From: Nibribacter ruber
GTDB lineage: Bacteria; Bacteroidota; Bacteroidia; Cytophagales; Hymenobacteraceae
Length of the DNA stretch: 64,000 nucleotides
Assembly: GCF_009913235.1 (NCBI RefSeq)
Contig: NZ_CP047897.1
Span: 1,240,001-1,304,000 of the forward strand
Direction: 5' to 3'
In this document: positions 4,089 through 61,272 of the stretch, piece by piece
Position numbering within the stretch: position 1 is the first letter of the stretch
Layout of the letters: every line of letters starts with the position of its first letter
Made by a program: the position numbers and the translations under genes
The notes under the pieces: model-generated
Databases searched by the model: none
What the model was told of the DNA's origin: nothing
What the model saw: only the letters and a program-made list of their open reading frames with translations

Positions 4089-4126
4089 CGTTTTTGGCCT
4101 GTTTCCTGGAAAACAGGCCAAAAACG
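4089..4126. repeat. 38-bp palindromic repeat, copy 1
   Basis: Near-perfect palindrome: arm CGTTTTTGGCCTGTTTCC, TG centre, then the complementary arm ending CCAAAAACG. It lies between the converging ends of the S8 protease and aconitase genes, just before their shared terminator. Confidence 0.95.
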
Positions 4127-4130
4127 ACAA

Positions 4131-4166
4131 AAAGAAAGGGCAGCCAATTGTGGCTGCCCTTTCTTT
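4131..4166. terminator. Bidirectional intrinsic terminator
   Basis: A 16-bp perfect stem (AAAGAAAGGGCAGCCA and its complement) with a 4-nt loop, A-rich on the left and T-rich on the right, placed between two convergent genes. It can serve both the protease and aconitase transcripts. Confidence 0.9.
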
Positions 4167-4184
4167 TTTATGTAAACCAGAAGC

Positions 4185-6461
4185 TTACGCCTGGTTTTGC
4201 TGTAATCTGATCAAGTTCAAAGCAGAACCCGCTTTAAACCACTCAATCTGTCCTTCATTGTAGGTGTGGTTGGCGTCAAAGGTGTAGGTAGAACCGTCTT
4301 TGTGCGTCAATCTCACTTTCAATGGCACACCAGGCGTGAAGTTGGTCAGGCCAATGATGTCCAACACGTCATCCTCTTCAATGCGCTCGTAATCTTCTTT
4401 GTTGGCGAAGGTCAGGGCCAGCATTCCTTGCTTCTTCAGGTTGGTTTCATGGATACGGGCGAAGGATTTCACCAATACCACCTGCACCCCCAGGAAGCGA
4501 GGCTCCATGGCTGCGTGCTCTCTGGAAGAACCTTCACCGTAGTTCTCATCTCCTACTACCACAGATCCAAGACCAGCGGCTTTGTAAGTACGGGCTACTT
4601 TAGGAACTTCGTCATAACCGCCACCGCGTACCAGTTGGCTCTTCACGCTGTTGGCTTCGCCGTTGTAGGCATTGATGGCACCAATCAACATGTTGTTGGA
4701 GATGTTGTCCAGGTGACCGCGGTATTTCAACCATGGACCTGCCATAGAGATATGGTCAGTGGTACATTTGCCTTGCGCTTTGATCAACAGTTTCAAGCCC
4801 ATCAGGTCTTGTCCGTTCCATGGTTTGAACGGCTCTAACAACTGCAATCTGTCTGAGCAAGGATCTACCACTACGCTTACGGCGCTTCCGTCTGCCGCTG
4901 GGGCTACGTAACCGGCGTCTTCTACGGCAAAGCCTTTCACTGGGAACTCAATACCCATTGGCTCGTCTAACATCACTTGCTCGCCGTTTTTGTTTGGCAG
5001 CGTGTCGGTTAGCGGGTTGAAGGTCAGGTCGCCGGCAATAGCAAACGCAGTCACGATCTCAGGAGAAGCCACAAACGCGTGGGTGTTCGGGTTACCGTCG
5101 TTCCGCTTGGCGAAGTTACGGTTGAACGACGTGATGATGGAGTTCTTGCGCTTAGGGTCATCTGTATGACGGGCCCACTGACCAATACACGGACCACAGG
5201 CGTTGGCTAGTACTACCCCGCCAATCTCAGCAAAGGTGTCCAGGATGCCGTCACGCTCTGCTGTGTAACGAACTACCTCAGAACCTGGGGTGATGGTGTA
5301 CTCTGCGTTCACCGCTAAGCCTTTGTCAATGGCCTGCTGGGCCAAAGAAGCGGCGCGGGTTAAGTCTTCATAAGAAGAGTTGGTGCAAGAACCAATCAAA
5401 CCTACCTCAAGTTTGGCCGGCCAGTTGTGCTCACGCACGGCAGCGGCAAACTGAGAAATTGGCCAGGCTGCATCTGGTGTGAACGGTCCGTTCACGTGTG
5501 GCTCCAACTCGCTCAGGTTGATTTCAATTAACTGGTCGTAGAAGGCTTCAGGGTTGGCCATTACCTCGTCATCGGCACGCAGGTGCTCAGCAACCTGGTC
5601 GGCCAGTTCGGCAATCTCAGCGCGCTCAGTACCCACCAGATAGTCTCTCATTTTCTGGTCATAGGAGAAGACAGAGGTAGTAGCCCCAATCTCGGCACCC
5701 ATGTTACAGATGGTAGCTTTACCAGAGCAAGAGATGTTGTTGGCACCCTCACCGAAGTATTCTACAATGGCACCGGTACCGCCTTTCACAGTCAGGATAC
5801 CCGCCACTTTCAAGATAACGTCTTTGGCCGCTGTCCAACCGCTCATCTTGCCGGTAAGTTTCACGCCAATCACTTTCGGGAATTTCAGTTCCCAGGCCAT
5901 GCCGGCCATTACGTCAACGGCGTCTGCACCGCCCACGCCAATGGCAATCATACCAACACCACCCGCGTTTGGCGTGTGCGAGTCAGTCCCGATCATCATA
6001 CCGCCCGGGAAGGCATAGTTTTCTTGTACCACCGTGTGGATGATACCCGCACCCGGCTTCCAGAACCCGATGCCGTATTTGTTAGACACAGAGGCCAGGA
6101 AGTCATACACTTCTTTGTTCTCAGTGTAGGCTTCAGACAAGTCTTGCTCAGCACCTACGCGGGCCTGGATCAAGTGGTCACAGTGTACCGAAGATGGCAC
6201 TGCCACCGTTGGTCTACCGGCCTGCATGAACTGTAACAAAGCCATCTGGGCAGTAGCATCCTGCATGGCAACGCGGTCTGGCGCAAAATCTACGTAAGAC
6301 TTGCCACGCTCATAAGCCTGCGTAGCCGCACCGTTATATAAGTGTGCGTAAAGGATTTTCTCGGTAAGAGTTAAGGGGCGGCCCACCGCCGTGCGTGCTG
6401 CTGCCACCCGGTCTCCCAGCTGCGCATACACGCCCTTGATCATGTCTACATCAAATGCCAT
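4185..6461 (-). CDS. acnA: Aconitate hydratase
   Basis: TCA-cycle enzyme interconverting citrate and isocitrate, cytosolic, with a 4Fe-4S cluster. The 758-residue length and layout match the monofunctional mitochondrial-type aconitases usual in Bacteroidetes. Cluster ligands are Cys359 ([10 protein letters not shown]) and Cys422/Cys425 ([10 protein letters not shown]). The N-terminal substrate-binding region has [12 protein letters not shown] and [11 protein letters not shown], and the swivel domain has [15 protein letters not shown]. The ATG gives [12 protein letters not shown]. It is monocistronic, divergent from a lipoprotein gene. The symbol acnA is used loosely, since acn naming varies between phyla. 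Confidence 0.97.
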
Positions 6462-6605
6462 AGATCTGCTTCGTATTTATTTTAGGTAAGTACTTAAGGA
6501 TGTCCGCAAATGTCGCAAACAGAACCCTTTTACACAAATAATTAAATATCTCCTAACTCTATAGGGTTTTCTACCTGAAATGTCTGATATTTCACGGTTG
6601 CCCTA

Positions 6606-6613
6606 TACCTTTG
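6606..6613 (+). promoter_or_regulatory. Possible -7 element TACCTTTG
   Basis: Matches the Bacteroidetes -7 consensus TAnnTTTG and ends only 4 nt before the ATG of the downstream lipoprotein gene, so transcription would start at or next to the start codon. No good -33 TTG/TTTG at the proper distance was seen, so the call is tentative. Confidence 0.35.
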
Positions 6614-6617
6614 CTGC

Positions 6618-7868: not shown

Positions 7869-7884
7869 CCCACCTCTTGATTGC

Positions 7885-7932
7885 AAAACGAAAGCGGCGC
7901 AGTTCTCAAAAGGACTGCGCCGCTTTCGTTTT
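7885..7932 (+). terminator. Intrinsic terminator fused to a 38-bp palindrome
   Basis: 19-bp stem starting AAAACGAAAGCGGCGCAGT, 10-nt loop, complementary arm and T-run. The final CGTTTTT is also the first 7 bases of the following 38-bp palindrome. The same terminator with compensating base changes occurs about 1.07 kb downstream. Confidence 0.9.
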
Positions 7933-7964
7933 TGGCCTGTTTTCTGGAAAATAGGCCAAAAACG
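7927..7964. repeat. 38-bp palindromic repeat, copy 2
   Basis: Arm CGTTTTTGGCCTGTTTTC, TG centre and the other arm with one mismatch (ATAGGCC). Shares its first bases with the upstream terminator T-tract. Confidence 0.95.
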
Positions 7965-8093
7965 GTTAAGGCTACTTTTATTTGAAAGAAATCACTTTGC
8001 ATAGGTGCGCAGGATAGAATTAGCTCGTTTTAAATATTTAGTATTTTCTATATATTTAACCTTCAATTTATTATACCATTAGCAATTTATCAC

Positions 8094-8943: not shown

Positions 8944-8957
8944 GAAGACACTTCTCT

Positions 8958-9005
8958 AAAACGGAAGTGGCGCAGTTCTTAAAAGGACTGCGCCACTTCC
9001 GTTTT
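8958..9005 (+). terminator. Intrinsic terminator fused to a 38-bp palindrome
   Basis: Stem starting AAAACGGAAGTGGCGCAGT with 10-nt loop and full complementary arm. It is homologous to the 7885-7932 terminator, with two base pairs changed on both sides (A-T to G-C and C-G to T-A). The T-run again forms the start of a 38-bp palindrome. Confidence 0.9.
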
Positions 9006-9037
9006 TAGCCTATTTTGGCGAAAACAAGCCAAAAACG
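9000..9037. repeat. 38-bp palindromic repeat, copy 3
   Basis: Starts CGTTTTTAGCCTATTTTG and ends CCAAAAACG. A diverged copy lying between convergent genes and overlapping the upstream terminator. Confidence 0.92.
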
Positions 9038-9064
9038 ACATGCCTTGAAGGCCCACGTTGCTGG

Positions 9065-9448: not shown

Positions 9449-9550
9449 AGTTTCTATGTTTTTAGGTTGGCTTTTTAAGTTTTAACGTGTGTTTACAGAT
9501 GTGTGCAGAGAAGTCAGATGGGTACGTAAGCTAAACAGGTAATACCGTTC

Positions 9551-9588
9551 CGTTTTTAGTCTGTTTTCTGGAAAATCGCCTAAAAACG
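9551..9588. repeat. 38-bp palindromic repeat, copy 4
   Basis: CGTTTTTAGTCTGTTTTC arm, TG centre, right arm ending CCTAAAAACG with mismatches. Lies between the end of a DinB-like gene and the start of the rhodanese gene. Confidence 0.92.
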
Positions 9589-9654
9589 ACGATCCTTGCA
9601 TAGTAGGAGGAGTGTCTTGCTTTATACTCCATTGTGGGCAAAAAAGCTACCTTT

Positions 9655-12449: not shown

Positions 12450-12487
12450 CGTTTTTAGCCTATTCCCGCCAAAACAGACCAAAAACG
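12450..12487. repeat. 38-bp palindromic repeat, copy 5
   Basis: CGTTTTTAGCCTATTCCC... ends ACCAAAAACG. A diverged copy downstream of the polyprenyl synthase gene. Confidence 0.9.
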
Positions 12488-15031: not shown

Positions 15032-15069
15032 CGTTTTTGGGCTGTTTCCAGGAAATCAGGCAAAAAACG
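15032..15069. repeat. 38-bp palindromic repeat, copy 6
   Basis: CGTTTTTGGGCTGTTTCC arm, right arm ends GCAAAAAACG. Just 3' of folK. Confidence 0.92.
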
Positions 15070-15138: not shown

Positions 15139-15212
15139 CAAGTTATAAGGACGTTGGCTATAACACCTCCCGCAAGTTTGAGCGCAGCGGAAACTTGTGG
15201 ATAGGCTTAGGA

Positions 15213-15269
15213 GCAAGTTTATCAACTTGCCTGATCCTTCCGCCAACCCACGCAAGTTGATAAACTTGC
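15213..15269. repeat. 18-bp perfect inverted repeat pair
   Basis: GCAAGTTTATCAACTTGC at 15213-15230 and its reverse complement at 15252-15269, 21 nt apart. Each half is itself nearly palindromic. Confidence 0.9.
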
Positions 15270-15313
15270 GCCATGATTAGCTCCAAGTCACAGACTTGAA
15301 GCAGGAGAGTAAG

Positions 15314-15351
15314 CGTTTTTGGGCTAATTTTCAGGAAACAAGCAAAAAACA
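15314..15351. repeat. 38-bp palindromic repeat, copy 7
   Basis: CGTTTTTGGGCTAATTTT arm, right arm ends AGCAAAAAACA. Lies 3' of the sugar dehydratase gene. Confidence 0.88.
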
Positions 15352-17366: not shown

Positions 17367-18242
17367 TTATCCTACCTGGGAAACCTCAGCGTTTTTGTCA
17401 ATTTTCTTCACCAGACCTTGCAACACCTTGCCCGGGCCGCACTCTACAAACAGCGTGGCACCGTCAGCGATCATTTGCTGCACAGACTGTGTCCAACGTA
17501 CGGGAGCCGTTAATTGCTGGATGAGGTTTTGCTGAATTTCTTGCGGATCTGTATGCGGCTTGGCGTCCACGTTCTGGTACACCGGGCAGATACCCTGCTT
17601 AAACTCTGTGTTACGGATGGCCGCTTCCAGTTCTGCTTCGGCAGATTTCATGAGCGGTGAATGGAAGGCTCCGCCCACAGGTAAGACCAGGGCGCGCTTG
17701 GCACCGGCGGCTTTCATGGCTTCGCAGGCTTTTTCTACGCCGGCAATGGAACCAGAAATTACCAATTGGCCTGGGCAGTTGTAATTGGCGGCTACAACCA
17801 CGTCGTCCACCTCGGCGCATATCTGCTCCACCTTTTCGTCTTCCAGGCCCAAGATGGCGGCCATGGTAGAGGGTTGCTCCTCGCAGGCTTTTTGCATGGC
17901 CAGGGCACGTTTAGACACCAGGCGAAGGGCATCTTCAAAGGAAAGCACTTTGTTGGCGACCAAGGCAGAAAACTCACCTAAAGAGTGACCAGCTACCATC
18001 TCTGGCGTAAAATCCTGAGCCACGGCGGCCTGAATAACGGAATGCAGGAAAATGGCGGGCTGGGTGACTTTGGTTTGCTTGAGTTCTTCGTCGGTGCCAG
18101 AGAACATGATGTCGGTGATCCTGAAACCCAGAATCTCGTTGGCTTGCTCAAACAGGCGTTTGGCTTCTTCATGCTGGTCATACAGGTCCTTGCCCATGCC
18201 CACAAACTGGGAACCCTGCCCCGGAAAAACGTATGCTTTCAT
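17367..18242 (-). CDS. fabD: Malonyl CoA-acyl carrier protein transacylase
   Basis: Transfers malonate from CoA to ACP in fatty acid synthesis. 291 residues from the ATG giving MKAYVFPGQGSQFVG. A longer frame upstream only translates the 38-bp palindrome and should be ignored. Nucleophile Ser87 lies in GHSLGEF and catalytic His194 in GAFHSPLMKS. Length is normal for the family. It follows the sugar dehydratase's start by 18 bp on the same strand, so fabD may be read ahead of it. A 38-bp palindrome lies in the presumed 5' untranslated region. Confidence 0.96.
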   Translation of the reverse strand: MKAYVFPGQGSQFVGMGKDLYDQHEEAKRLFEQANEILGFRITDIMFSGTDEELKQTKVTQPAIFLHSVIQAAVAQDFTPEMVAGHSLGEFSALVANKVLSFEDALRLVSKRALAMQKACEEQPSTMAAILGLEDEKVEQICAEVDDVVVAANYNCPGQLVISGSIAGVEKACEAMKAAGAKRALVLPVGGAFHSPLMKSAEAELEAAIRNTEFKQGICPVYQNVDAKPHTDPQEIQQNLIQQLTAPVRWTQSVQQMIADGATLFVECGPGKVLQGLVKKIDKNAEVSQVG

Positions 18243-18256
18243 AGCTTTTGGTTTTT

Positions 18257-18294
18257 TGTTTTTGGTCTCTTTTCTGGAAAACAGGCCAAAAACG
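18257..18294. repeat. 38-bp palindromic repeat, copy 8 (in the fabD leader)
   Basis: TGTTTTTGGTCTCTTTTC arm, right arm ends GGCCAAAAACG. It lies between the probable fabD -7 element and the fabD start codon, so it should be transcribed as a hairpin in the leader. Confidence 0.92.
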
Positions 18295-18317
18295 GCGGTT
18301 TTCTCTAGAAAAGAAAA

Positions 18318-18325
18318 CAAAGATA
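18318..18325 (-). promoter_or_regulatory. Probable fabD -7 element (TATCTTTG)
   Basis: On the minus strand this reads TATCTTTG, matching TAnnTTTG. It sits between the upstream gene's terminator and fabD. No clear -33 element was found, as the terminator stem occupies that place. Confidence 0.45.
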
Positions 18326-18328
18326 AGA

Positions 18329-18362
18329 AAAAGGCGCCCATTCTAAGAAGGGGCGCCTTTTC
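18329..18362 (-). terminator. Intrinsic terminator of the gliding-type gene
   Basis: AAGGCGCCC stem, 11-nt loop, complementary arm, with T-run on the minus strand; 11 nt beyond the stop of the upstream gene. Confidence 0.88.
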
Positions 18363-21252: not shown

Positions 21253-21290
21253 GGTTTTTAGCCAATTTTTCTGAAAACAAGCTAAAAACA
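21253..21290. repeat. 38-bp palindromic repeat, copy 9
   Basis: A more diverged copy (GGTTTTTAGCCAATTTTT, right arm ends CTAAAAACA) in the 5'-5' gap between the type B sorting gene and sdhC, upstream of the sdh promoter. Confidence 0.8.
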
Positions 21291-24972: not shown

Positions 24973-25008
24973 AAAAGGCGGAGCTTCCATGGCTTCGCCT
25001 TTTCTGTT
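24973..25008 (+). terminator. sdh operon terminator
   Basis: AAAAGGCGGAGC stem with its complement GCTTCGCCTTTT (one G-T pair), short loop, then TTCTGTTTTT. The T-run runs into the next palindromic repeat. Confidence 0.85.
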
Positions 25009-25042
25009 TTTGGCTTGTTTTCCAGAAAACAAGCCAAAAACA
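25005..25042. repeat. 38-bp palindromic repeat, copy 10 (perfect arms, changed ends)
   Basis: TGTTTTTGGCTTGTTTTC and its exact complement around a CA centre. Both arms differ from the consensus at paired positions (TG/CA end pair, T-A inner pair), so pairing is kept. Confidence 0.95.
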
Positions 25043-25672: not shown

Positions 25673-25710
25673 CGTTTTTGGCTTGTTTTCTGGGATCTAG
25701 GCGAAAAATG
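25673..25710. repeat. 38-bp palindromic repeat, copy 11
   Basis: CGTTTTTGGCTTGTTTTC arm is intact; the right arm is decayed (GATCTAGGCGAAAAATG). 3' of the FMN reductase gene. Confidence 0.85.
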
Positions 25711-26423
25711 GCAGGTTTGAAATTTATATTAAAGTGACAATCAAGAAGCTTATAGGCTCCAAGCAGTTGAAAACCGCGTGCCAAAGTAGGATTAAGCAGG
25801 AATTATAATTCAAAGATTCATCATCAACGATAGTCTCGTCGGAAGTTGCAAATTCCCTCTACTGCGCTCGCTGCTTCAAACTCTCGTTTGTTCAATCCTC
25901 ATGGGGAATTTGCCAGTGGCAATAGCCATTACAATCCGCACATGCTCCAACTGAATTTAGGATAGGCCTTTACTAAACGCACCATTTCCAGTCTTTCCGT
26001 CGAGCCGCCTAAGCAGGTTACCGCCTCAGATTAGATCAGCGGCAAAGACGGAGAGCCGGCCGTTCCTCTCCCAAAACTGCATCCACGCAGAAGAGGCAAG
26101 CTAGTACAGCGCGAGGCGGGAAGACGGGGCCCCGCGGCCGCGAGCGCTTGGCGGTGACAATGAAACAAGGCGGCATAAGGGCACCGGAAGAAAGAACCTT
26201 CTCAGGAGCAGCCCACGGAGGCGCACGGCAGAAAGTCATGGATGTAACATCCACACCAGAGATACATAAGCAAAGCCCTAAGAAGAGTTGCAGTAGGAGA
26301 AGAGGCCTTAGGCGCGTCTTTGGCAAATTTACCGCCAACAACGCCCAGCGGCAACCCAAACAACAGCAAGGACAGAAGACAACGATATGAAGCCCTCACT
26401 TCCACATAACTCCTCCATCAAAA

Positions 26424-26457
26424 AAACAGCCCAAAACCGTTTCCGATTTTGGGCTGT
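26424..26457 (-). terminator. Terminator of the dcw operon (after ftsZ)
   Basis: AACAGCCCAAAA and TTTTGGGCTGTT form a perfect 12-bp stem around a CCGTTTCCGA loop, flanked by A/T runs. The right arm is part of the adjoining 38-bp repeat. Confidence 0.8.
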
Positions 26458-26481
26458 TTCCTGAGAAATAAGCGAAAAACG
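26444..26481. repeat. 38-bp palindromic repeat, copy 12
   Basis: CGATTTTGGGCTGTTTCC... ends AGCGAAAAACG, one base from the ftsZ stop codon. Its left arm doubles as a terminator arm. Confidence 0.85.
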
Positions 26482-29342: not shown

Positions 29343-30104
29343 CTATTCACAAATAATCTGATCCTTGTACTCCACATTCAGGCGGCTGTATTTCTCCCAC
29401 CCTACTACCGGCAACACCTCCTTGTAAAAAATGAACAGCTTCCTGAACTTCTCCTCTAGGTGGTGGGGCTTGCCAAACTCAATGCGCTGGTCGCCTACCT
29501 GCGTTAAAAAACTTACTTTCCCCTTGGCGTCTATGTCCATATGGGCCAACTGAGCATCCCAGAAGGGGTCCTGCTCAATGAAGCGTAAAAGCTCCAGGTA
29601 TGGCCTGCCCACTGAATCCTGAAAGAAGGAGGGGGCTAAGGTTGGTTTCACAGCTGACGAAGTCACTGGAATGACATGCGCCGTGTACAGTGAAGACAGA
29701 GGCAGCACATTTCCTTCTTCGTCCAGGTACACATCGCGTTCTGAACTCAGCAGCCGGGCAATGGGCCTGTTTTGTTTTATCAGGACGTTGATGTTGCCAT
29801 CAAGATCGTGATATACCTCCGCTTCTCTTACAAATTTATGCGATTTAATTCGCAATTCAAGTCGCTTGAGGTCAATCTCCCCTTTTTTCGTTCCCTCCAG
29901 CGGCTGGTCTCCATTTCTGGTGAGCAGCGCTAGAACTTCCGTCTCACTAAGAAAGTAATTGTTGTATTCATTATCAATTTTAATATTGACTTTTTTACAT
30001 ATTTTATCCTGTTGCCGAGACTTGGAAAAGCCTGCCAAAAACAGGAAGCCGCTTAAACACAAAACGGCAAAGAGCAGGGCTTTTACTTTTCTATTCCACA
30101 ACAT
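29343..30104 (-). CDS. ftsQ: Cell division protein FtsQ/DivIB-like
   Basis: 253-residue bitopic protein of the divisome. One N-terminal transmembrane segment (KALLFAVLCLSGFLFLAGF, residues 8-26), then an extracytoplasmic part beginning with a POTRA-like region (VNIKIDNEYNNYFLSETEVLALL) and FtsQ-type strands (REAEVYHDLDGNINVLIKQNRP). Sequence conservation is low, as typical; the call rests on topology and on its place between murC and ftsA. Its start overlaps the end of murC by 14 nt. Confidence 0.9.
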   Translation of the reverse strand: MLWNRKVKALLFAVLCLSGFLFLAGFSKSRQQDKICKKVNIKIDNEYNNYFLSETEVLALLTRNGDQPLEGTKKGEIDLKRLELRIKSHKFVREAEVYHDLDGNINVLIKQNRPIARLLSSERDVYLDEEGNVLPLSSLYTAHVIPVTSSAVKPTLAPSFFQDSVGRPYLELLRFIEQDPFWDAQLAHMDIDAKGKVSFLTQVGDQRIEFGKPHHLEEKFRKLFIFYKEVLPVVGWEKYSRLNVEYKDQIICE

Positions 30105-31500
30105 GGGCTCTCTCCTCCAGAAGGTGCTTTATACCAGACACTAAGGTGTCAATGTCTCCGGCGCCCACCGTGGCCAGCACCGCAAAATCCAAATCATTTT
30201 CTAAGGCCGCCAACACATCTTTTTTTTCAAGCAGACGCTTCTCTGGTCCCTCTATTTTGTCAAAAATCAGCTGGGTGGTCACCCCCGGCAGCGGCAACTC
30301 CCGGGCCGGGTAAATTTCCAGCAACCAAACCTCGTCTGCCAGGCTCAAACTCTCGGCGAAGCCTTCCAGAAAATCACGGGTTCTGGTGAACAGGTGCGGC
30401 TGAAAAATAACCCTCAGCTTCTGCCCTGGGTACAAGGCCCGCACCGACCTCAGAAAGGCTTCAATCTCCCGTGGGTGGTGGGCGTAGTCATCTAAGAAAA
30501 CCTTGCCATTATCTGCCCATACGCGCTCAAAACGACGTTTCACCCCTACATACGCCTCTATGCCCTCCTGAATCTTTTCTGGGCTTAACCCTACCAGTGA
30601 TACAGCCTGCGCGGCGGCCACGGCATTCTCTACATTGTGGAAGCCCGGCACCTGCAAAGACGTTTCAGGGAGTGCAAAGTTCCGACCTTTCACAGAGAAT
30701 TTCATAGCTCCGGCCGCAATTTTTATAGGCCCAGAGGCAAGCTCTTCATGCTCAAGACCATAGGTAATGACCTGCACCGTAGGGTGCACCGAATCTTTTA
30801 AAGATTGGTCTGCGGTATGGTTCAACAACAGGTATCCGTTGGGCTTTATCTGGCTTACAAACTGCTTGAATGACTCTACCAGCGCCTCCTTTTCCCCATA
30901 AATGTCCAAATGGTCTGGATCTGTGGAGGTGACGATGGCAATGTCTGGATGCAGAGTTAAAAAAGACCGGTCAAACTCATCTGCCTCTACCACGGCCAGC
31001 GCTCTTTCCTCATGTTCATGCGGCAGCAACAGGTTAGAACCAAGGTTGGTAGAAATGCCGCCCAAGAACGCCGAGGTGGAAACCTTTGCATGCTGTAAAA
31101 GGTGCGCCACCATGGATGACGTTGTGGTCTTACCATGGGTACCCGCCACGGCAATGAGGTATTGGTCTGCCGTCAGTAAGCCCAGCACCTGGGACCGTTT
31201 CATAATGGTGAAGCCGTTCTCTTGCAGGTATTGTCTTTCTGTTTGCGCCGCCGGAACGGCAGGCGTGAGCACCACCAGCGTTTTTTGCTTGTTTTCCAGA
31301 AAAGAGGCCGGAATCAACCGGATATCATCTTCATAGTGAATCTGGGCGCCTTCTTCCGTTAGTTTCTGGGTAAGGGGCGTCACCGTACGGTCATACCCTG
31401 CCACTGCAAAGCCTTTGGCCAGAAACCAGCGGGCAATGGCGCTCATGCCAATGCCTCCAATGCCCAGAAAGTAGATATGACGGTAGTGGCTCAGGTTCAT
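30091..31500 (-). CDS. murC: UDP-N-acetylmuramate-L-alanine ligase
   Basis: 469-residue Mur ligase adding L-Ala to UDP-MurNAc in the cytosol. Rossmann motif YFLGIGGIGMSAIARW, ATP loop AGTHGKTTTSSMVAHLL, VVEADEFDRSF and the C-terminal DDYAHHPREIEAFL. Near residue 70 the segment PASFLENKQKTLVVLTPA is encoded by DNA resembling the 38-bp palindrome (29 of 38). Its ATG overlaps the murG stop as ATGA. Confidence 0.97.
   Translation of the reverse strand: MNLSHYRHIYFLGIGGIGMSAIARWFLAKGFAVAGYDRTVTPLTQKLTEEGAQIHYEDDIRLIPASFLENKQKTLVVLTPAVPAAQTERQYLQENGFTIMKRSQVLGLLTADQYLIAVAGTHGKTTTSSMVAHLLQHAKVSTSAFLGGISTNLGSNLLLPHEHEERALAVVEADEFDRSFLTLHPDIAIVTSTDPDHLDIYGEKEALVESFKQFVSQIKPNGYLLLNHTADQSLKDSVHPTVQVITYGLEHEELASGPIKIAAGAMKFSVKGRNFALPETSLQVPGFHNVENAVAAAQAVSLVGLSPEKIQEGIEAYVGVKRRFERVWADNGKVFLDDYAHHPREIEAFLRSVRALYPGQKLRVIFQPHLFTRTRDFLEGFAESLSLADEVWLLEIYPARELPLPGVTTQLIFDKIEGPEKRLLEKKDVLAALENDLDFAVLATVGAGDIDTLVSGIKHLLEERAHVVE
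31279..31316. repeat. Palindrome-like sequence inside murC (degenerate)
   Basis: CGTTTTTTGCTTGTTTTC... matches the 38-bp family at about 29 of 38 positions; the left two thirds fit well, the right end (CCGGAATCA) is lost. In frame it encodes FLENKQKT. May be chance. Confidence 0.4.
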
Positions 31501-36831: not shown

Positions 36832-38295
36832 CTATTTCTGGAGCAGGGCAAACGTCTCCTGCAAAATCTGCTTGTCGTCAAAAGGCGAGCGTTGGCCTTT
36901 CACTTCCTGGTAAGTTTCATGTCCCTTGCCGGCTACCAGAATGATGTCATCGGCATCGGCGAGCATTACCGCCGTTTTAATGGCTTCTTTCCGGTCCACT
37001 ACGCTCAAGGCCTTTCTCAAATCTGTGTGCTTTACGCCGGCCTGCATCTGGTTCAGGATTTCCTGCGGATCTTCATCCCTCGGGTTGTCTGACGTCAAAA
37101 TGACTCTGTCACTCAGGCGTGCGGCTATGTCTGCCATGATAGGACGCTTGGTCGCATCGCGGTTGCCGCCGCAGCCCACAATGGTGATGACTTTCTGCTC
37201 GGGCTTTCTGATCTGCTGGATGGTCTGCAACACATTCTCCAGCGCGTCTGGGGTGTGGGCATAATCCACAATACCGGTTATCTGGCCAGGGCTCACCACG
37301 TAGTCAAACCGTCCGGCGGCTGAGGTGAGAGAAGATAGACTGGTTAACACCTCCTGCGCATCCTCGCCTAACAAAACCGCCGCGCCGTACACGGCCAGCA
37401 GGTTATAGGCGTTAAAAGTGCCAATGAGCTTGAACCACACTTCCTGCCCTTCCAATTCCAGTTGCAACCCTTGGATGGAGTTGTCCAGCAGGCGGGCCTT
37501 GAAATCAGCTTCTTTGCGCAGGGCGTAGGTTTTCTTGTCGGCTTTGGTGTTTTGCAGCATCACCATGCCGCGCTTGTCATCTGAGTTTACCAGCGCAAAT
37601 GCCTTAGTTGACAGATTGTCAAAAAAGAGCTTTTTGGCCTTGATGTACTCGTCAAACGTCTTGTGGTAGTCCAGGTGGTCATGCGAGATGTTGGTGAACA
37701 CGGCGCCGGCAAATTCCACCCCGGTCACTCTGTGCTGAACCAAGGCATGCGAGCTCACTTCCATGAACGCATGAGTGCAGCCCGCTTTTACCATCTGGGC
37801 CAACAAGGCTTGCAAAGTGATGGCGTCTGGTGTGGTGTGCGTGGCCGGAATTACCGTTTCATTGATTTGATTCTGCACCGTTGACAGCAGACCAGCGTTG
37901 TAGCCCAGCTCCCGGAACAGTTTATGCAGTAAAGTCACGCAGGTGGTCTTACCGTTGGTTCCCGTTACCCCCACCAGCTTCATTTTCTGGGATGGATGTC
38001 CGTAGAATGCGGCAGCCACGTGGCCCATGGCCTCGGCCACGTTGGGCACAATCACAAAGGTGACTCCTTCTGGGGCGTTTTTGGGCTCTTTTTCGGAAAA
38101 CACGACAGAAACGCCCTGCTCCAGGGTCTGGGGTATGAAGTCATGGCCGTCGCGCACGGTTCCCTTGATGGCGAAGAACGCCACCCCCGGTCCCGCCTGA
38201 CGGGAGTCCATAGTTAACGCAGAAAGCTCGGGGTTAGTAGGCCCGAGCAATTGCGAGGACGGTATCGCCTGCAGTAGGTTTTGTAGTTGTGCCAT
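36832..38295 (-). CDS. murE: UDP-MurNAc-tripeptide ligase (meso-diaminopimelate type)
   Basis: 487-residue Mur ligase adding the third stem-peptide residue. ATP loop VTGTNGKTTCVTLLHKLF, HTTPDAITLQ, MEVSSHALVQHRVTGV, and the motif TSDNPRDEDPQ, whose DNPR marks meso-diaminopimelate specificity. Near residue 65 the peptide VVFSEKEPKNAPEG is encoded by DNA matching the 38-bp palindrome at 31 of 38 positions. The start MAQLQNLLQAIP overlaps the 3' end of ftsI by 62 nt. Confidence 0.97.
   Translation of the reverse strand: MAQLQNLLQAIPSSQLLGPTNPELSALTMDSRQAGPGVAFFAIKGTVRDGHDFIPQTLEQGVSVVFSEKEPKNAPEGVTFVIVPNVAEAMGHVAAAFYGHPSQKMKLVGVTGTNGKTTCVTLLHKLFRELGYNAGLLSTVQNQINETVIPATHTTPDAITLQALLAQMVKAGCTHAFMEVSSHALVQHRVTGVEFAGAVFTNISHDHLDYHKTFDEYIKAKKLFFDNLSTKAFALVNSDDKRGMVMLQNTKADKKTYALRKEADFKARLLDNSIQGLQLELEGQEVWFKLIGTFNAYNLLAVYGAAVLLGEDAQEVLTSLSSLTSAAGRFDYVVSPGQITGIVDYAHTPDALENVLQTIQQIRKPEQKVITIVGCGGNRDATKRPIMADIAARLSDRVILTSDNPRDEDPQEILNQMQAGVKHTDLRKALSVVDRKEAIKTAVMLADADDIILVAGKGHETYQEVKGQRSPFDDKQILQETFALLQK
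38076..38113. repeat. Palindrome-like sequence inside murE (degenerate)
   Basis: CGTTTTTGGGCTCTTTTT... ends ACAGAAACG, 31 of 38 identical to the family consensus and of the same length. Encodes VFSEKEPKN in frame on the minus strand. Confidence 0.5.
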
Positions 38296-45427: not shown

Positions 45428-45466
45428 CGTTTTTTGGCCTGATTTTGGTAAAAGAGGCTAAAAACG
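45428..45466. repeat. 38-bp palindrome family, copy 13 (39 bp)
   Basis: CGTTTTTTGGCCTGATTTTG... with one extra T, right arm ends GGCTAAAAACG. Inside the receptor-HMA operon gap. Confidence 0.9.
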
Positions 45467-45925: not shown

Positions 45926-45963
45926 CTTTTTTGGCCTGGTTTCCAGAAAATAAGCCAAAAACG
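45926..45963. repeat. 38-bp palindromic repeat, copy 14
   Basis: CTTTTTTGGCCTGGTTTC arm, right arm ends AGCCAAAAACG. Follows the terminator of the HMA gene. Confidence 0.9.
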
Positions 45964-47964: not shown

Positions 47965-48012
47965 AAACGCGAAGCCCCGCTAACTCTTTTGAATTAGCGG
48001 GGCTTCGCGTTT
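47965..48012. terminator. Intrinsic terminator fused to a palindromic repeat
   Basis: AAACGCGAAGCCCCGCTAA stem with full complement and 10-nt loop; T-run shared with the next repeat. Lies between convergent M1 peptidase and crtW genes and could act both ways. Confidence 0.9.
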
Positions 48013-48045
48013 TTGGCCTATTTTCCATAAATCAGCCTAAAAACG
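48008..48045. repeat. 38-bp palindromic repeat, copy 15
   Basis: CGTTTTTGGCCTATTTTC arm, right arm ends GCCTAAAAACG. Joined to the terminator before it. Confidence 0.93.
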
Positions 48046-48882: not shown

Positions 48883-48920
48883 CGTTTTTGGGCTAATTTC
48901 TGGAAAACAGGCCAAAAACG
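48883..48920. repeat. 38-bp palindromic repeat, copy 16
   Basis: CGTTTTTGGGCTAATTTC arm, right arm GAAAACAGGCCAAAAACG intact. Between ispH and crtW. Confidence 0.93.
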
Positions 48921-53954: not shown

Positions 53955-53956
53955 TT

Positions 53957-55590: not shown

Positions 55591-55628
55591 CGTTTTTGGC
55601 CTGACTTCTGGAAAACAAGCCAAAAACG
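55591..55628. repeat. 38-bp palindromic repeat, copy 17
   Basis: CGTTTTTGGCCTGACTTC arm, right arm GAAAACAAGCCAAAAACG. Confidence 0.94.
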
Positions 55629-55723: not shown

Positions 55724-55747
55724 CTTGTTGGTGATAACACCAACAAG
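55724..55747. repeat. Perfect 10-bp hairpin
   Basis: CTTGTTGGTG-ATAA-CACCAACAAG. No T-run follows, so it is not a normal terminator. Confidence 0.85.
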
Positions 55748-55907
55748 GGCGGTATTGCTTATTATAATTTCCCTTTCAAAAGGCCCATTCTCAGAGTTCT
55801 CGATTAGAAAATAGCACATCAGCACATTAACCCATTAGCACCCTGAAGACTCATTTTCACATCTCCACATTTTCAAATCTTCACATTAAAAATAGCACAT
55901 TAAAAAG

Positions 55908-56720: not shown

Positions 56721-56816
56721 AGTCTAATTACCTACGAATTGGCTAAGCTTAAAGGTATGAAAATTAAGAAACCCACCTTAAAAAGTGATGACGGGCAAGG
56801 GAAAATCTACCCTGGT

Positions 56817-58934
56817 TTACCGTAATCTCAAAGTCCAGGCACCATCTTCCTCCAGGTTGTGGACCGTATAGCCAGCGGCCCGCAACTCCGTGGATTTGCG
56901 TTGCACATACCAAGGCGCGTTGGTCTGGTCCATAACCACATATGCACAGTCTATGACTTGCCGTAGTTGATCAACTTTAGCCCAGACATTCTTCTGCAAC
57001 ACCAGCACATCTACTGGTACCGGTTTAGCTAAATTACGAGGTAGTTTCTGCAGCCAAAGAATCCGTTTGCCTTGCCAGACCATTAACCTGTTGCCTTCTT
57101 CCGTTGCATGCACCGCCAGCTCGCGTTTTTGGCTTGATTTCTGGAAAAGAGGCCAAAAACGATGCCCCTCTTGAACACCCTTCGCCCACCAGTGCGGCTG
57201 GATGGTATAGGTAAAGTTGCGGGGCTGGGCATGGAAAGCAGAGTCTGCCAGCAGCGTGGCGCTTCGGCCTTCAATTATTCCAACGGCACTGCTTTTTCTA
57301 GCGCTGTAGATAACTAGCTCTTGGATGTGCCGCTGCCGTTGGGCTTCGGCTATTTCAGTGGCAGAGAGGAAGGCCAAACAGACTGTGGCCAGCCCGAGCC
57401 AAGGTAGCTTTCTGTATACTAGAAACAAGACTAGGCCAATCATCAACACATATAAGGCCAGCACCTGACCAATGGAAATGACAAACCCGTCCAACACTGA
57501 AAAAGGCCACTGCTCCAACCAAAGCAGAAACCTGTTCAACCCAAAAAGCGTCCATTGCAGCAGAAACCCCAGTAAGACATTCAAATAAGGCACCCAGAAC
57601 AAAAGCATGAACGCCACGCCCAGATATAAACCAGCAGAAGTCAAGGGCACTGCCAGCAAATTGCCTACCCAGAAGTACACCGGAAACTGATGGAAGTAGT
57701 ACAAACTCAGAGGAAACGTAGCCATTTGCGCGGCAATGGAAATGGCGAAGAGCTCCCAGACCATGCGCATTGGTTTCTGCTCTGGGTTCCAGAGTTGAAG
57801 GAAAAGCGGTTGCAGCAAAACAATGCCCGCCACCGCCAGAAACGACAGCTGGAAGCCCACGTCAAACAAGAAATTGGGATCCATCAAGAGCAGCAGCATG
57901 GCCACGGCCGCCAAGGTGTTCAAGACAGAAGATTTCCTTCTCAGCAACATGCCCAGCTCTACCAGAGAGAACATCCACACAGACCGCAAGACCGAAGCCG
58001 ACAAACCCGTCACGAAGGCATAAAACCACACCACGCCCACAATGAACAGGAAGATAACCACCCTGGACTTTCGGCCACGCCGAAGATGCTTAAGGAAGAA
58101 CAACAGCACACCGTAAAGCAAGCCCACATGCAAACCGCTCACCGCCAACACGTGCATGGTACCAGTTCTGGCGTAGGCATTGCGTAACGAGGCATCTAGA
58201 TCATCCTGCACGCCTAAGACCAGGGCATTGGCAATGGTGGCTTCGCGCTTGAAAGGAATGTGCTCTTTAAAGGCCGCTTCTAGCGTTTTTCGGACTTGTA
58301 AACTGATGGCCTCCAGTGCACTTTCTGGGTGTAGGCCTATCACTTGCCAGGAGCCTTCGGGGAGGTAAGACTGCCACTGAATGTGCTTGAGCGTGAGGTA
58401 GCGGCGGTAGTCAAATTGGTGGGGATTGGCGGGTTTGGCAGGTGGCATCAAGGTGCCTTTGATGAGCAATTGATGTCCGTATTGCAGGGTATCTGCCTCT
58501 GGTGAATGGGGCAGAAAAACGGCCACTTGTCCAGAAGCGGCATGCCAATTACCCAGTGAGTCCCGCACCGCCTCTACCCTGCCCACAGAACTCACCGAAG
58601 TAGGTTTCAAGGCAACTGCTTTAACCAAAGTCACTTTGTAATGCGTGATGGCGCTTGCCGGGACCTGAAGCGTTTTTGGGCTGTTTTTCAGAAAAGAGAC
58701 CAAAAACGCCAGGGATAGAAGGGCCGCTAAACCTGCCCAGCCTGTGTACGTCCTAAATTTCCGGTTGGGCTTTCTTAACGTAAACCACCAGGCCGCAAGA
58801 AACAAGAGCACCAGGCCAGCCGTCACCAAAGCCACATAAGAACCAGCCTGACCCAGGTAGTTGTATAGCAGAATACCCGACAGGAAAGCTGTCAAGGGAC
58901 GTATCATGCCAGTTAAAAGGTGTCTTCCTTTCAA
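56817..58934 (-). CDS. comEC: ComEC/Rec2-family DNA uptake channel with two embedded palindromes
   Basis: 705-residue polytopic inner-membrane protein for passage of single-stranded DNA in natural transformation. N-terminal DUF4131-like part with three helices, then an OB-like loop, then the Competence domain (HVLAVSGLHVGLLYGVLLFFL and following helices). The C-terminal metallo-beta-lactamase domain is absent: no HxHxDH motif is found. Two 38-bp palindromes are translated within it: FLVSFLKNSPKT (about residues 76-88) and RFWPLFQKSSQKR (about 592-604), using different frames. Confidence 0.92.
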   Translation of the reverse strand: MKGRHLLTGMIRPLTAFLSGILLYNYLGQAGSYVALVTAGLVLLFLAAWWFTLRKPNRKFRTYTGWAGLAALLSLAFLVSFLKNSPKTLQVPASAITHYKVTLVKAVALKPTSVSSVGRVEAVRDSLGNWHAASGQVAVFLPHSPEADTLQYGHQLLIKGTLMPPAKPANPHQFDYRRYLTLKHIQWQSYLPEGSWQVIGLHPESALEAISLQVRKTLEAAFKEHIPFKREATIANALVLGVQDDLDASLRNAYARTGTMHVLAVSGLHVGLLYGVLLFFLKHLRRGRKSRVVIFLFIVGVVWFYAFVTGLSASVLRSVWMFSLVELGMLLRRKSSVLNTLAAVAMLLLLMDPNFLFDVGFQLSFLAVAGIVLLQPLFLQLWNPEQKPMRMVWELFAISIAAQMATFPLSLYYFHQFPVYFWVGNLLAVPLTSAGLYLGVAFMLLFWVPYLNVLLGFLLQWTLFGLNRFLLWLEQWPFSVLDGFVISIGQVLALYVLMIGLVLFLVYRKLPWLGLATVCLAFLSATEIAEAQRQRHIQELVIYSARKSSAVGIIEGRSATLLADSAFHAQPRNFTYTIQPHWWAKGVQEGHRFWPLFQKSSQKRELAVHATEEGNRLMVWQGKRILWLQKLPRNLAKPVPVDVLVLQKNVWAKVDQLRQVIDCAYVVMDQTNAPWYVQRKSTELRAAGYTVHNLEEDGAWTLRLR
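57124..57161. repeat. 38-bp palindromic repeat, copy 18, inside comEC
   Basis: CGTTTTTGGCTTGATTTC arm, right arm GAAAAGAGGCCAAAAACG. Translated on the minus strand as RFWPLFQKSSQK without a stop. Confidence 0.95.
58671..58708. repeat. 38-bp palindromic repeat, copy 19, inside comEC
   Basis: CGTTTTTGGGCTGTTTTT arm, right arm GAAAAGAGACCAAAAACG. Translated as AFLVSFLKNSPKT, a different frame from the other comEC copy. Confidence 0.95.
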
Positions 58935-59048
58935 TGCCAGGCTCCTTTGGTAATAGCGTTTTACTTATGTGACTACCAAAGGAATACGAGGTTTGAAACT
59001 GGAGCGTTTCTGAGCAAAAATGTCGCAAGGCATTACCCGCAAAAACAG

Positions 59049-59075
59049 AAAGGGCACGCTTGGCGTGCCCTTTCC
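59049..59075 (-). terminator. phoH terminator
   Basis: AAAGGGCACGC and GCGTGCCCTTT perfect 11-bp stem with a short TTG loop, placed 20 nt past the phoH stop. Confidence 0.85.
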
Positions 59076-59095
59076 TACAAATGAAATTGTGGTTG

Positions 59096-60163: not shown

Positions 60164-60236
60164 TCTACCGAAAAAACAGTAGTTTTGTTATGAAACATAT
60201 ATAGAATTTTTAAAGTTCTTCTGACCGACCGTTCCC

Positions 60237-61013
60237 ATGGGTTTTATCACTTTCCTGTCTGATTTTGGCACCACAGACCACTATGTGGCCGCAGTTAAGG
60301 CTAAGATCCTGACTATCAATCCCGCACAAGTCATTGTAGACATCACCCACCAGGTAGAACCTTACAACATTGCCTACGGGTACCACGTGCTCAACTCCGT
60401 TTTTCAGGACTTTCCGGTGGGCACGGTGCATTTGATAGCCGTAGATACCCACGGAAGCAAGCAGGGACGGTTTCAGGTGGCTCGCCACCAGGGTCATTAT
60501 TTTGTATGCGCAGACAACGGCCTGCTTTCCCTCTTAACCGACGGCGACCCAGAGCAGCTCATAGACCTGCCCATGCAGCCAGACTCTCCCTCACCGGCCA
60601 GAGACATTATGGTACCGGCGGCGGTGGCTTTGGCCCAGGGCGCTTCCATGGCCGAGGTAGGCGAACTGGCAGACGGCATGTTGCAACTGATCAACCGCCA
60701 ACTCAAGCTCAATGACCATTCCGTATCTGGGCACGTGGTGCACGTAGACCATTACGGCAACCTCATCACCGACATCACCAAAGACAGCGTGGAAGCCATC
60801 GGTCACGGACGTCCGTTCCTGGTCAAGTTCGCCCGCGAAAAAGTAGACCGCATGTACTCGCGATTCAACCAGGTAGGCGAAGGTGATTGCGTCATCCTCT
60901 TCAATCGCCAAGGCTTCCTAACCATCGGCATCAACAAAGGCCACGCCTCAGAACTTCTGGGCATGTACTTTGACTCTAGCGTAGAGATCCAGTTCGCGCA
61001 AAACGCCAATTAA
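60237..61013 (+). CDS. S-adenosylmethionine hydroxide adenosyltransferase (DUF62)
   Basis: 258-residue protein that hydrolyses SAM to adenosine and methionine in characterised relatives, related to fluorinase. Motifs FITFLSDFGTTDHYVAAVKAKI, VIVDITHQVEPYNIAYGYHVL, CADNGLLSLL and HVDHYGNLITDI. Cytosolic. Divergent from phoH; a TAGTTTTG -7-like site lies at 60179-60186. Its need in the cell is not well understood. Confidence 0.94.
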   Translation: MGFITFLSDFGTTDHYVAAVKAKILTINPAQVIVDITHQVEPYNIAYGYHVLNSVFQDFPVGTVHLIAVDTHGSKQGRFQVARHQGHYFVCADNGLLSLLTDGDPEQLIDLPMQPDSPSPARDIMVPAAVALAQGASMAEVGELADGMLQLINRQLKLNDHSVSGHVVHVDHYGNLITDITKDSVEAIGHGRPFLVKFAREKVDRMYSRFNQVGEGDCVILFNRQGFLTIGINKGHASELLGMYFDSSVEIQFAQNAN

Positions 61014-61054
61014 TTAAGAATTAATAGTTCTTGGTTGTATAATGCACTGGGGAC

Positions 61055-61092
61055 CGTTTTTGGCCTGTTTTCTGAAAAAGAAGCTAAAAACG
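61055..61092. repeat. 38-bp palindromic repeat, copy 20
   Basis: CGTTTTTGGCCTGTTTTC arm intact, right arm ends AAGCTAAAAACG. 3' of the SAM hydrolase gene. Confidence 0.93.
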
Positions 61093-61235
61093 CCCAATCC
61101 GTCAGCAAGTTTGCAGTTTGTTGGTTGAATGGAGCAGGCTCCTAAACATGCGTGACCATGCAAACGGTTACCATGGCGCAGGCGTCCGCCTGTGTCAGAA
61201 CACGTTGGGTATCTGATAGGAATGCAGACATACAC

Positions 61236-61272
61236 CGTTTTGGGCTGTTTTCTGGGAAAGAGGCCAAAAACG
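61236..61272. repeat. 38-bp palindrome family, copy 21 (37 bp)
   Basis: CGTTTTGGGCTGTTTTC arm with one T lost, right arm AGGCCAAAAACG. Confidence 0.92.

Follow-up and report, generated by a model that had tools for sequence, protein, structure and literature searches.

A near-perfect palindrome recurs at gene ends across the 64-kb stretch of DNA analyzed here (the window), which raises the question of what kind of element it is. The initial annotation described an abundant palindrome family with a 2-nt center and counted 21 copies, two of them with lengths of 37 and 39 bp. A scan for both arms bears out the family and gives 23 copies with up to eight arm mismatches, spanning positions 4089-61272. 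All 23 have a 2-nt center and hence are 38 bp long, and the two deviating lengths were not seen. Matches to the arm with three or fewer mismatches number 36 in the window, compared to 0.14 expected from shuffles. The copies are listed below without strand, together with a comEC homologue that carries two of them in its coding sequence.

4089-4126: palindrome copy, 1 arm mismatch, 17/18 pairs
7927-7964: copy directly after a terminator-like hairpin (7885-7932), 1 arm mismatch
9000-9037: copy directly after a terminator-like hairpin (8958-9005), 4 arm mismatches
9551-9588: copy, 6 arm mismatches
12450-12487: copy, 6 arm mismatches
15032-15069: copy, 4 arm mismatches
15314-15351: degenerate copy, 8 arm mismatches
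18257-18294: copy at the 5' end of an acyltransferase ORF (17367-18341, minus strand) whose start may be overcalled, its Pfam domain starting at residue 37; 3 arm mismatches
21253-21290: degenerate copy, 8 arm mismatches
25005-25042: copy with paired changes after a terminator-like hairpin, 18/18 pairs
25673-25710: copy, 7 arm mismatches
26444-26481: copy, 8 arm mismatches; an extra inverted arm (3 mismatches) lies at 26422-26439
31279-31316: copy inside a Mur ligase ORF (30091-31500, minus strand; Pfam), 7 arm mismatches
38076-38113: copy inside a Mur ligase ORF (36832-38211, minus strand; Pfam), 6 arm mismatches; also in G142
45429-45466: copy, 7 arm mismatches; 12 of 15 relatives carry the core (three or fewer mismatches) at the corresponding position
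45926-45963: copy after a complete terminator-like hairpin, 4 arm mismatches; also in G142 and G136
48008-48045: copy after a terminator-like hairpin (47965-48012), 5 arm mismatches; also in G142 and G136
48883-48920: copy, 3 arm mismatches; also in G142, with an element of G144 in the matching gap
55591-55628: copy, 3 arm mismatches
56817-58934, minus strand: comEC homologue (competence protein family; Pfam PF03772, E 7.6e-62, and PF13567, E 1.4e-23)
57124-57161: copy within comEC at codon 602 (extended frame), 3 arm mismatches
58671-58708: copy within comEC at codon 86 (extended frame), 4 arm mismatches
61055-61092: copy, 4 arm mismatches
61235-61272: copy, 5 arm mismatches

The copy at 25005-25042, for which paired changes had been claimed, is indeed a perfect palindrome whose pairs changed together. 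A scan beyond the window, which the initial annotation had proposed as a check, shows that the enrichment holds: an 864-kb sample of the source genome (G000) contains 323 copies, compared to none in a reversed control, and this density corresponds to approximately 1,600 copies per genome. The center measures 2 nt in 319 of the 323 copies, 1 nt in two, and 3 nt in two. Furthermore, 406 arm matches (two or fewer mismatches) lie inside palindromes and none lies outside, and thus the palindrome is the unit.

The distribution of this unit follows a single genus. Its core pattern is found 190 to 1,626 times in each of 16 Rufibacter genomes (the source genome, which is probably a Rufibacter, and 15 relatives) and zero to three times in the other 188 genomes of the family. 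In a sample at the level of the order, all seven Rufibacter genomes carry the palindrome, and single matches occur in 4 of the 383 others. Copy number varies about ninefold among Rufibacter species, and the consensus differs between species to give dialects with a conserved core. In one species (G145) copies are few, and the palindrome may be on its way out. An exact core match was also observed on one viral contig. At the gathering threshold, Rfam finds only a tRNA in the window, and none of the literature titles and abstract openings listed, all from open-licence PMC papers, describes the palindrome, which leaves its absence unproven. To this extent, the earlier view that no named element has this consensus is upheld.

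Based on gene calls from a home-made program, 304 copies in the 864-kb sample could be classified, of which 289 are intergenic; this count leaves out 19 further copies at stretch edges. Among gaps of at least 60 nt, copies occupy 71 of 92 between convergent genes, 152 of 294 between co-directional genes, and 26 of 86 between divergent genes, consistent with the earlier observation that most copies lie 3' of genes. Close inverted pairs, as in REPINs or BIMEs, are not the rule, as two copies occur in 30 of 472 such gaps and no gap holds more. Fewer occupied gaps lie less than 1 kb apart than label shuffles would give (12.0% versus 17.8%, p 0.0005). The spacing CV is not significant (p 0.14), and the spacing signal is modest overall. 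One 20-kb stretch that resembles a defence island has no copies, and copies are few in sequence of acquired appearance.

By size, copy number, and position, the family fits the description of a REP as a high-copy extragenic palindrome of 20-40 bp. As had been noted, no transposase lies nearby, at least of the types covered by our scan, which found no Y1/RAYT match inside the window. Elsewhere in the source genome, three REP_Tyr_transpos (RAYT-type) genes exceed the family cut-off, and one of these (P0001) has near-perfect 38-bp copies on both sides. However, the presence of this gene is not tied to that of the repeat. Orthologues of P0001 (73-79%) occur in only 4 of the 15 relatives, one of them with an internal stop. 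The five genomes in which P0001 or an orthologue occurs have core counts of 1,477, 1,610, 1,062, 738, and 745. In the other eleven the range is 190 to 1,626; these include the closest relative (G142), where the core is matched 1,170 times and P0001 finds no match at 1e-10. A related palindrome lies just upstream of P0001 and its four orthologues, in more degraded form in G135 and G139. These genes also lie among different REP hairpins of the GAGTCTGGAGACTC type, located upstream, of which the sample has few (9 matches versus 5 in the reversed control). P0001 was rejected as the mover because the repeat is abundant in G142 without the gene and because the P0001 loci carry this other REP-type hairpin. 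A cognate RAYT would be both flanked by its repeat and tracking with it, and P0001 is flanked but does not track.

Other traces of mobility were sought in the sequences around the copies. In 313 copies, no strongly conserved column was found beyond one base outside the 38 bp, and hence there is no GTAG/CGTC foot tag. A target site duplication of fixed length, as expected for a MITE, was not seen among 318 copies, which have no excess of flank repeats at 3 or 5 nt. Flank repeats do exceed shuffles at 2 nt with one base skipped (36 versus 23.3), at 4 nt with two bases skipped (5 versus 1.7), and at 6 nt (1-2 versus 0.1). These small excesses touch few copies and fit no single length, and self-complementary outer arms could be their source. 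A transposed element should show clean presence or absence between relatives, and this was not observed in the cases viewed: seven of eight cases were viewed among the exceptions to site sharing between G000 and G142, none of them with a clean 38-40 bp empty site, and the unoccupied alignments have gaps of 0-12. Because no tag, fixed-length duplication, tracking transposase, or clean empty site was seen, the palindrome fails the defining tests of a RAYT-mobilised REP.

The initial annotation took paired changes as evidence that selection acts on the folded form. This claim is weak, with covariation confined to the outer arms and the lower stem. A z of at least 2 is seen for pairs close to the outer end in five of six species, whereas no apical pair has positive covariation above z 2 in the six species (the highest value is 1.8, from 27 copies in G132) and some apical pairs have negative covariation. 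The unique outer arms also covary; they reach at least 5 bp in 42 of 317 copies, compared to about one in shuffles. Between G000 and G142, inner double changes number 27 versus 18.3 expected, with 15 from pair to pair. Of the pairs in five outer stems, 24 are unchanged, 4 have changes on both sides that preserve pairing, 2 are broken, and 9 are gapped. Template switching between arms suffices to explain such paired changes, and we therefore do not read the covariation of the lower stem and outer arms as proof of selection on the fold.

Copies on or in terminator-like hairpins occur far above chance. Such hairpins abut 38 of 626 copy sides, compared to 8 in a control window, and in these cases the copy sits beyond the terminator hairpin. 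The palindrome by itself has no U tract 3' of its hairpin. In co-directional gaps, T runs of at least 4 within 20 nt past the copy number 33 on the sense side versus 21 on the antisense side, of 172. As RNA, the consensus has a folding energy of -24.0 kcal/mol, and its least altered pairs are A-U. An excess of G-U pairs in the sense orientation is not significant (186 G.T versus 164 A.C, p 0.26), and the lean is reversed inside genes (10 G.T versus 22 A.C).

The palindrome also occurs twice within comEC. At codon 602, the core is present with three or fewer mismatches in all 10 species examined, and this site ranks first of 2,109 windows for pattern-specific conservation across these species. 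The codon-86 copy is less clear, with a rank of 91 of 2,109 windows and the core at the same limit in 8 of 10 species (for G138, one core mismatch was used; a run with a looser limit gave four, because the matching program can miss the best fit). The species comparison reveals no 38-bp insertion for the comEC copies. In G133, the left arm of the codon-602 site is written in the G133 dialect. Matches to ComEC were found in all 16 Rufibacter genomes and also in 10 of 14 control genomes.

Sites are largely kept between species, as judged from one species pair. G142 (approximately 84% identity) is also occupied at 54 of the 61 comparable G000 sites, with 45 of 106 G000 copies not comparable. Seven of the 54 shared sites were dropped as gappy or not 38 bp, which left 47 orthologous copies for position-wise alignment. 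The outer T/A tracts (T4-6 and A33-35) have 2 changes in 282, compared to 37 in 204 for flanking A/T runs, and T15-16 and A23-24 are conserved on both sides. Positions such as 7, 10, 13, 14, 20, 22, 25, and 26 change at about the rate of the flanks. Dyad symmetry of constraint is imperfect, given the unequal changes at G9 (6/47) and C30 (2/47) and at T3 (2/46) and A36 (6/44). What stands out about the palindrome is that specific letters are conserved at fixed positions. A protein that binds double-stranded DNA is expected to leave conservation that is position-specific and dyad-symmetric but free of covariation, and this pattern is found here, though the lower stem covaries in five species.

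Three other accounts must be weighed against recognition at the DNA level. An ancient origin as REP-like mobile palindromes is doubtful, although not negligible. A RAYT or other single-strand enzyme would have spread them in ancestral Rufibacter by favoring hairpin loops and terminator T tracts, and copies would later have been fixed and partly domesticated. Gene-end placement like that of the extragenic REPs described in PMC3733652, the preference for loops and bases of terminator-like hairpins, the variable copy number, the few short flank repeats, and the three RAYT-type genes, with the copies around P0001 and the related palindrome at all five orthologous loci, are consistent with this history. 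The tests of mobility above speak against it, as do the comEC copies that are not insertions and the defence-island-like stretch without copies. A gene-end element acting in RNA, with a transcribed hairpin that guards mRNA 3' ends or terminates in both directions between convergent genes, agrees with the strong convergent bias, the RNA fold of the consensus, the paired outer arms, the abutting hairpins, and the sense-side T runs. We consider it quite improbable, however, since the hairpin lacks a following U tract, abutting copies are positioned past a terminator hairpin, A-U pairs are the least changed, and no significant sense-strand G-U preference is seen, with the opposite lean in genes. 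In addition, the copies within the coding sequences of Mur ligases and comEC should cause interference under this account.

Another account likens the palindrome to a DNA uptake sequence (DUS) in palindromic form. It would serve as a self-identity mark by which DNA is preferentially taken up in natural transformation or recombined, and molecular drive would keep and homogenise its copies. Under this unlikely account, Rufibacter would mark its own genome with more than 1,000 signals of 36-40 bp. These would originate where they stand, diverge into species dialects, and be maintained, even within comEC, because DNA uptake or recombination favors them. High core counts, genus restriction, and dialects fit this picture, as Neisseriaceae DUS dialects likewise occur in thousands with a conserved core (PMC3630211). 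Also in its favor are the scarcity of copies in acquired-looking sequence, ComEC in every Rufibacter genome, and the comEC sites, with no 38-bp insertion and a species dialect in one arm at a fixed place. Against it, most classified copies are intergenic and ComEC is matched in most control genomes too. Known uptake sequences are non-palindromic and occur as lone sites in a single orientation, many of them in coding sequence, whereas no arms with two or fewer mismatches lie outside palindromes here. To our knowledge, no DNA uptake sequence has been described in this phylum, so this account, if true, would supply a palindromic counterpart there.

On balance, the copies look more like protein-recognition sites than mobile DNA. 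We give an even chance to the palindrome being a recognition site that is dyad-symmetric, specific to the genus, kept in place, and read as DNA by a putative protein. The constraint on T4-6 and A33-35, the shared sites, and the absence of lone arms argue for this reading, as do the conservation at codon 602 with the G133 dialect in its left arm, the lack of a significant G-U excess, the rarity of occupied gaps less than 1 kb apart, and the restriction to Rufibacter. A putative dimeric (or two-dimer) DNA-binding protein would most likely read both T/A tracts of each arm in GTTTnnnGnnTnnTT-n6-AAnnAnnCnnnAAAC, which are about one helical turn apart. Sites may arise in place via mutation and small indels and probably persist through selection or biased recombination. 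Gene ends might be used because constraint there is low and terminator hairpins supply ready T tracts, and the protein may organise or insulate the chromosome between transcription units. Our search covered the Y1/RAYT and ComEC families and did not find the reader.

Several observations weigh against such a recognition site. The outer arms and lower stem covary as in a hairpin, and the terminator association and sense-side T runs point to a possible role in termination. The imperfect dyad symmetry, the rank of the codon-86 copy, the modest spacing signal, and the related palindrome found upstream at the P0001 loci also count against it, as does the reliance of the shared-site test on one species pair with many copies not comparable. 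Moreover, it is difficult to see how an ordinary binding site could change its consensus at more than 1,000 sites one by one. REPs are often explained as miniature mobile DNA, and this family makes the question of whether they have a function directly testable, because sites are mostly kept between two species, specific letters change far less than the background, and the palindrome is retained in a coding gene. The system is also clean in that every examined Rufibacter genome has the palindrome, sampled neighbors have essentially none, and dialects differ.

Among known systems, binding sites of chromosome-organising proteins such as matS and Noc sites are short dyad-symmetric sites across the chromosome that number from tens to about 100 per genome. 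The palindrome resembles them in symmetry and chromosomal distribution, but it exceeds 1,000 copies per genome and lies at gene ends. DNA uptake sequences are short, non-palindromic single sites that are often in coding DNA and are also present at terminators. The palindrome shares high copy number, dialects with a conserved core, and presence at terminators with those of Neisseriaceae and Pasteurellaceae, but its unit is the full dyad, without lone arms at two or fewer mismatches, and it is mostly intergenic. Intrinsic terminators consist of a GC-rich hairpin with a U tract behind it; the palindrome taken by itself lacks such a tract, and some copies are nested in or beside hairpins of this kind. 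REPs, as described in PMC3733652, are high-copy extragenic palindromes of 20-40 bp, mainly in unidirectional or convergent gaps, with some in genes. The Rufibacter palindrome matches REP/BIME elements of the GTAG and CGTC superfamilies in size range, copy number, gene-end placement, and occasional presence in genes. Unlike them, it is symmetric without an unpaired tag, occurs mostly once per gap and not in pairs, has species dialects, and has neither a 38-bp insertion in comEC nor a tracking transposase. RAYT-associated REPs of Bacteroidetes are represented in PMC6006769 by TnpAREP subclasses 2.4 and 2.6. The Rufibacter RAYT genes are similar in having hairpins around them, including the 38-bp palindrome at P0001, but the P0001 loci also hold GAGTCTGGAGACTC-type hairpins that are rare in the sample.

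In the window, the arm described in the initial annotation matches 36 times at no more than 3 mismatches, compared with 0.14 matches expected, and a two-arm scan yields 23 copies of the palindrome, all 23 with a 2-nt centre, which upholds the claim of an abundant family. The genome of this organism (G000) is a single contig of 4,352,178 bases, of which the window spans positions 1,240,001 to 1,304,000. We sampled it by adding 40 evenly spread 20-kb stretches to the window (864 kb) and counted copies at a score of 9 or lower. The sample holds 323 copies, corresponding to about 1,630 by extrapolation to the genome, and the reversed-sequence control gave 0 copies up to score 12 and three at 13; enrichment continues beyond the window. 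The 2-nt centre is present in 319 of the 323 copies, and conservation ends sharply one base beyond the 38 bp. At 2 or fewer mismatches, the 17-nt arm has 406 matches within palindromes and 0 elsewhere in the 864 kb; in the window, a limit of 3 mismatches reveals an arm adjoining a copy, at 26422-26439.

With at most 1 mismatch, the arm is present in all 16 genomes of the genus Rufibacter (5 to 1,117 matches each) and as a single match in 7 of the 188 other genomes of the family. We also scanned with a degenerate core pattern, GTTTNNNGNNTNNTTNNNNNNAANNANNCNNNAAAC, permitting one mismatch. This recovered 190 to 1,626 palindromes in each of the 16 Rufibacter genomes (1,477 in G000) and 0-3 in each of the 188 other genomes; the backward control gave 0-2. 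Among 390 genomes drawn from across the order, the exact core occurs 45-1,042 times in each of 7 of 7 Rufibacter and as one match each in 4 of the other 383, and all 16 stretches from named records that carry a related full palindrome are from Rufibacter. Consensus sequences differ between species among the six compared, for example GTTTTTGGCCTGTTTTC in G000, GTTTAGGGGCTGTTTTT in G133, and GTTTTCGGGCTCATTTC in G144. One exact core match lies in a viral contig of IMG/VR (L270, 1275-1310). A different palindrome, TGTTTAACGTTT..AAACATTAAACA, is found in three other Rufibacter genomes (L202, 10287-10330; L212, 5847-5891; L201, 12425-12460).

The stability of sites was assessed against the nearest relative (G142), which is about 84% identical across a tested 19 kb and largely colinear with G000 over about 180 kb, where individual matches range from 68 to 91%. 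For 106 G000 copies in 250 kb, 54 sites are occupied in G142, 7 are without a copy by scan, 19 have distant anchors, and 26 lack an anchor; in the reverse check of 76 G142 copies, 54 are occupied in G000, 1 is not, and 21 are distant. Of the eight sites scored as lacking a copy, seven were inspected by eye, namely six G000 sites and the single G142 one, and a clean 38-40 bp gap is absent from all of them. Four of these sites show a diverged element in G142, and at three of the four a lone G142 element faces two scanned G000 copies, spaced 134, 192, and 269 bp apart; a single G142 copy may thus correspond to both. In the 250-kb coordinates, these G000/G142 places are 162475/162609, 183453/183645, and 148661/148930. 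They look as if recombination between copies had deleted the intervening DNA. In short stretches of further relative pairs (at least 79% identity), sites are mostly occupied, some lack the core at a comparable length (gaps of 0-12), and there is no clean gap. Between G143 and G145, compared over 32 kb from each, G143 has 15 copies at 2 mismatches and 19 at 3, and G145 has three and 9. Five G143 sites align with G145 sequence of the same or nearly the same length that has at least 3 core mismatches or no core match. G145 has just 190 core matches, and in stretches L211 and L266 several of its sites look degraded beside those of G143. In our reading, copies were probably lost in G145 rather than gained in G143, and the G145 lineage may have lost whatever maintains the repeat.

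Constraint was examined in 47 orthologous G000/G142 copies, after dropping 7 of the 54 shared sites. These copies are 86.3% identical with 1.5% gaps, compared with 75.0% and 81.3% identity and 12-14% gaps in the 25-nt flanks. Although selection of these sites relied on similarity, the G142 threshold was loose (score 14), so the resulting bias should be small. At T4-6 and A33-35, 2 of 282 bases changed, whereas A/T runs of at least 4 in the flanks had 37 changes in 204. Positions 15-16, 23-24, and 30 are likewise low (1-2 changes apiece), positions such as 7, 10, 13, 14, 20, 22, 25, and 26 vary roughly as often as the flanks, and no significant reduction was found at G9 or T12. From these positions, the conserved T/A tracts of each arm would lie about one helical turn apart.

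Two copies lie inside comEC:

56817-58934, minus strand, comEC
57124-57161, copy at codon 602 of comEC
58671-58708, copy at codon 86 of comEC

At 3 or fewer core mismatches, a level at which the backward control gives 12 matches in 864 kb, the codon-602 copy is present in 10 of 10 Rufibacter species examined (of 16) and the codon-86 copy in 8 of 10. We compared the window gene with stretches L181, L200-L202, L260-L264, and L267-L269. When the 2,109 windows in comEC are ranked by conservation of fixed minus free pattern positions, the codon-602 copy comes 1st and the codon-86 copy 91st, or 14th of 703 in its own frame. Neither copy is a 38-bp insertion, because comEC in three genomes of another genus (G147, G170, and G192) has 3 extra residues at codon 86 and lacks 3-6 at codon 602. 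Across the ten species examined, comEC is a gene with a DNA motif conserved within coding sequence. Other genic copies occur in two Mur ligases, an SbcC-like gene, an AAA-domain helicase-like gene, a histidine biosynthesis gene, an aminotransferase, a TPR protein, and a sigma-54 activator, among others.

A home-made gene caller, which found 687 genes (77.5% coding) and thus missed some, places 289 of the 304 classified copies between genes; 19 stretch-edge copies were left unclassified. The placement 3′ of genes proposed in the initial annotation was borne out: copies per kb number 3.08 in convergent, 1.78 in co-directional, and 0.97 in divergent gaps and 0.02 within genes, and 63 of 174 co-directional copies lie in the fifth of the gap closest to the stop codon versus 16 in that closest to the next start. 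Gaps of at least 60 nt hold two copies at most, as 30 of 472 do. The spread of occupied gaps is slightly more even than in label shuffles, both those less than 1 kb apart (12.0% versus 17.8%, p 0.0005) and those more than 6 kb apart (6.2% versus 9.5%, p 0.0085) being fewer, although the coefficient of variation of their spacings does not differ significantly (p 0.14). Terminator-like hairpins adjoin copies on 38 of 626 sides versus 8 in the control window. The stem is prolonged by at least 5 unique base pairs in 42 of 317 copies (about 1 in shuffles); some of these are A-tract/GC-stem/T-tract structures with the palindrome at the apex, and others are unlike terminators.

Selection on RNA should produce a G.T excess among co-directional copies. 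In sense orientation these have 186 G.T and 164 A.C mispairs (p 0.26), compared with 85 and 83 in convergent, 32 and 31 in divergent, and 10 and 22 in genic copies (p 0.05). T runs of at least 4 within 20 nt beyond the copy number 33 of 172 on the sense side and 21 of 172 on the antisense side, an excess that leans toward an RNA role, opposite to the mispair result. The earlier proposal that paired changes reflect selection on the fold has weak support: outer-end pairs reach a covariation z of 2 in five of six species, a pattern that template switching might equally generate, whereas apical pairs reach it in none of the six.

The suggested search for a RAYT-type transposase found three REP-associated Y1 genes in G000, plus a fourth, weak fragment. 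However, orthologues of one of them, P0001 (REP_Tyr_transpos), are limited to G140, G136, G135, and G139 (73-79%), the last with an internal stop, and G142 has no match at 1e-10 and just a weak one under the family cut-off. P0001 is flanked by copies on both sides, the upstream one being a 58-bp extended palindrome. Upstream of all five genes are GAGTCT..AGACTC hairpins typical of REPs, a type scarce in sampled G000 (9 matches versus 5 in the reversed control), and closer to the genes is a palindrome related to the 38-bp one, degraded in G135 and G139. Separately, window positions 15210-15272 carry two oppositely oriented CAAGTTTATCAACTTG-type hairpins with a RAYT-type REP look, distinct from the 38-bp palindrome. 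No target duplication of one constant length was found at copies, although a few short direct repeats occur there in excess of shuffles. One 20-kb stretch (L058, G000:C1:2640001-2660000) has zero copies; 5 of its 6 scanned proteins (11 ORFs of at least 200 aa are present) have matches, which include ABC-3C, macro, SMC-like, STAND-like (below cut-off), and integrase core, and from these it looks like a defence island. DNA unmatched in G142 has 2 copies in 12.1 kb versus 78 in 170.8 kb elsewhere, which points the same way on few data.

An ancient mobile origin of the family is possible, and the boldest reading would make the palindrome an uptake or recombination signal. Measured against known systems, the family failed defining tests of RAYT-mobilised REPs, of MITEs, and of classical uptake sequences. 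It is extragenic and REP-like in looks, and the 38-bp palindrome is best read as a putative DNA-level dyad site held in place.
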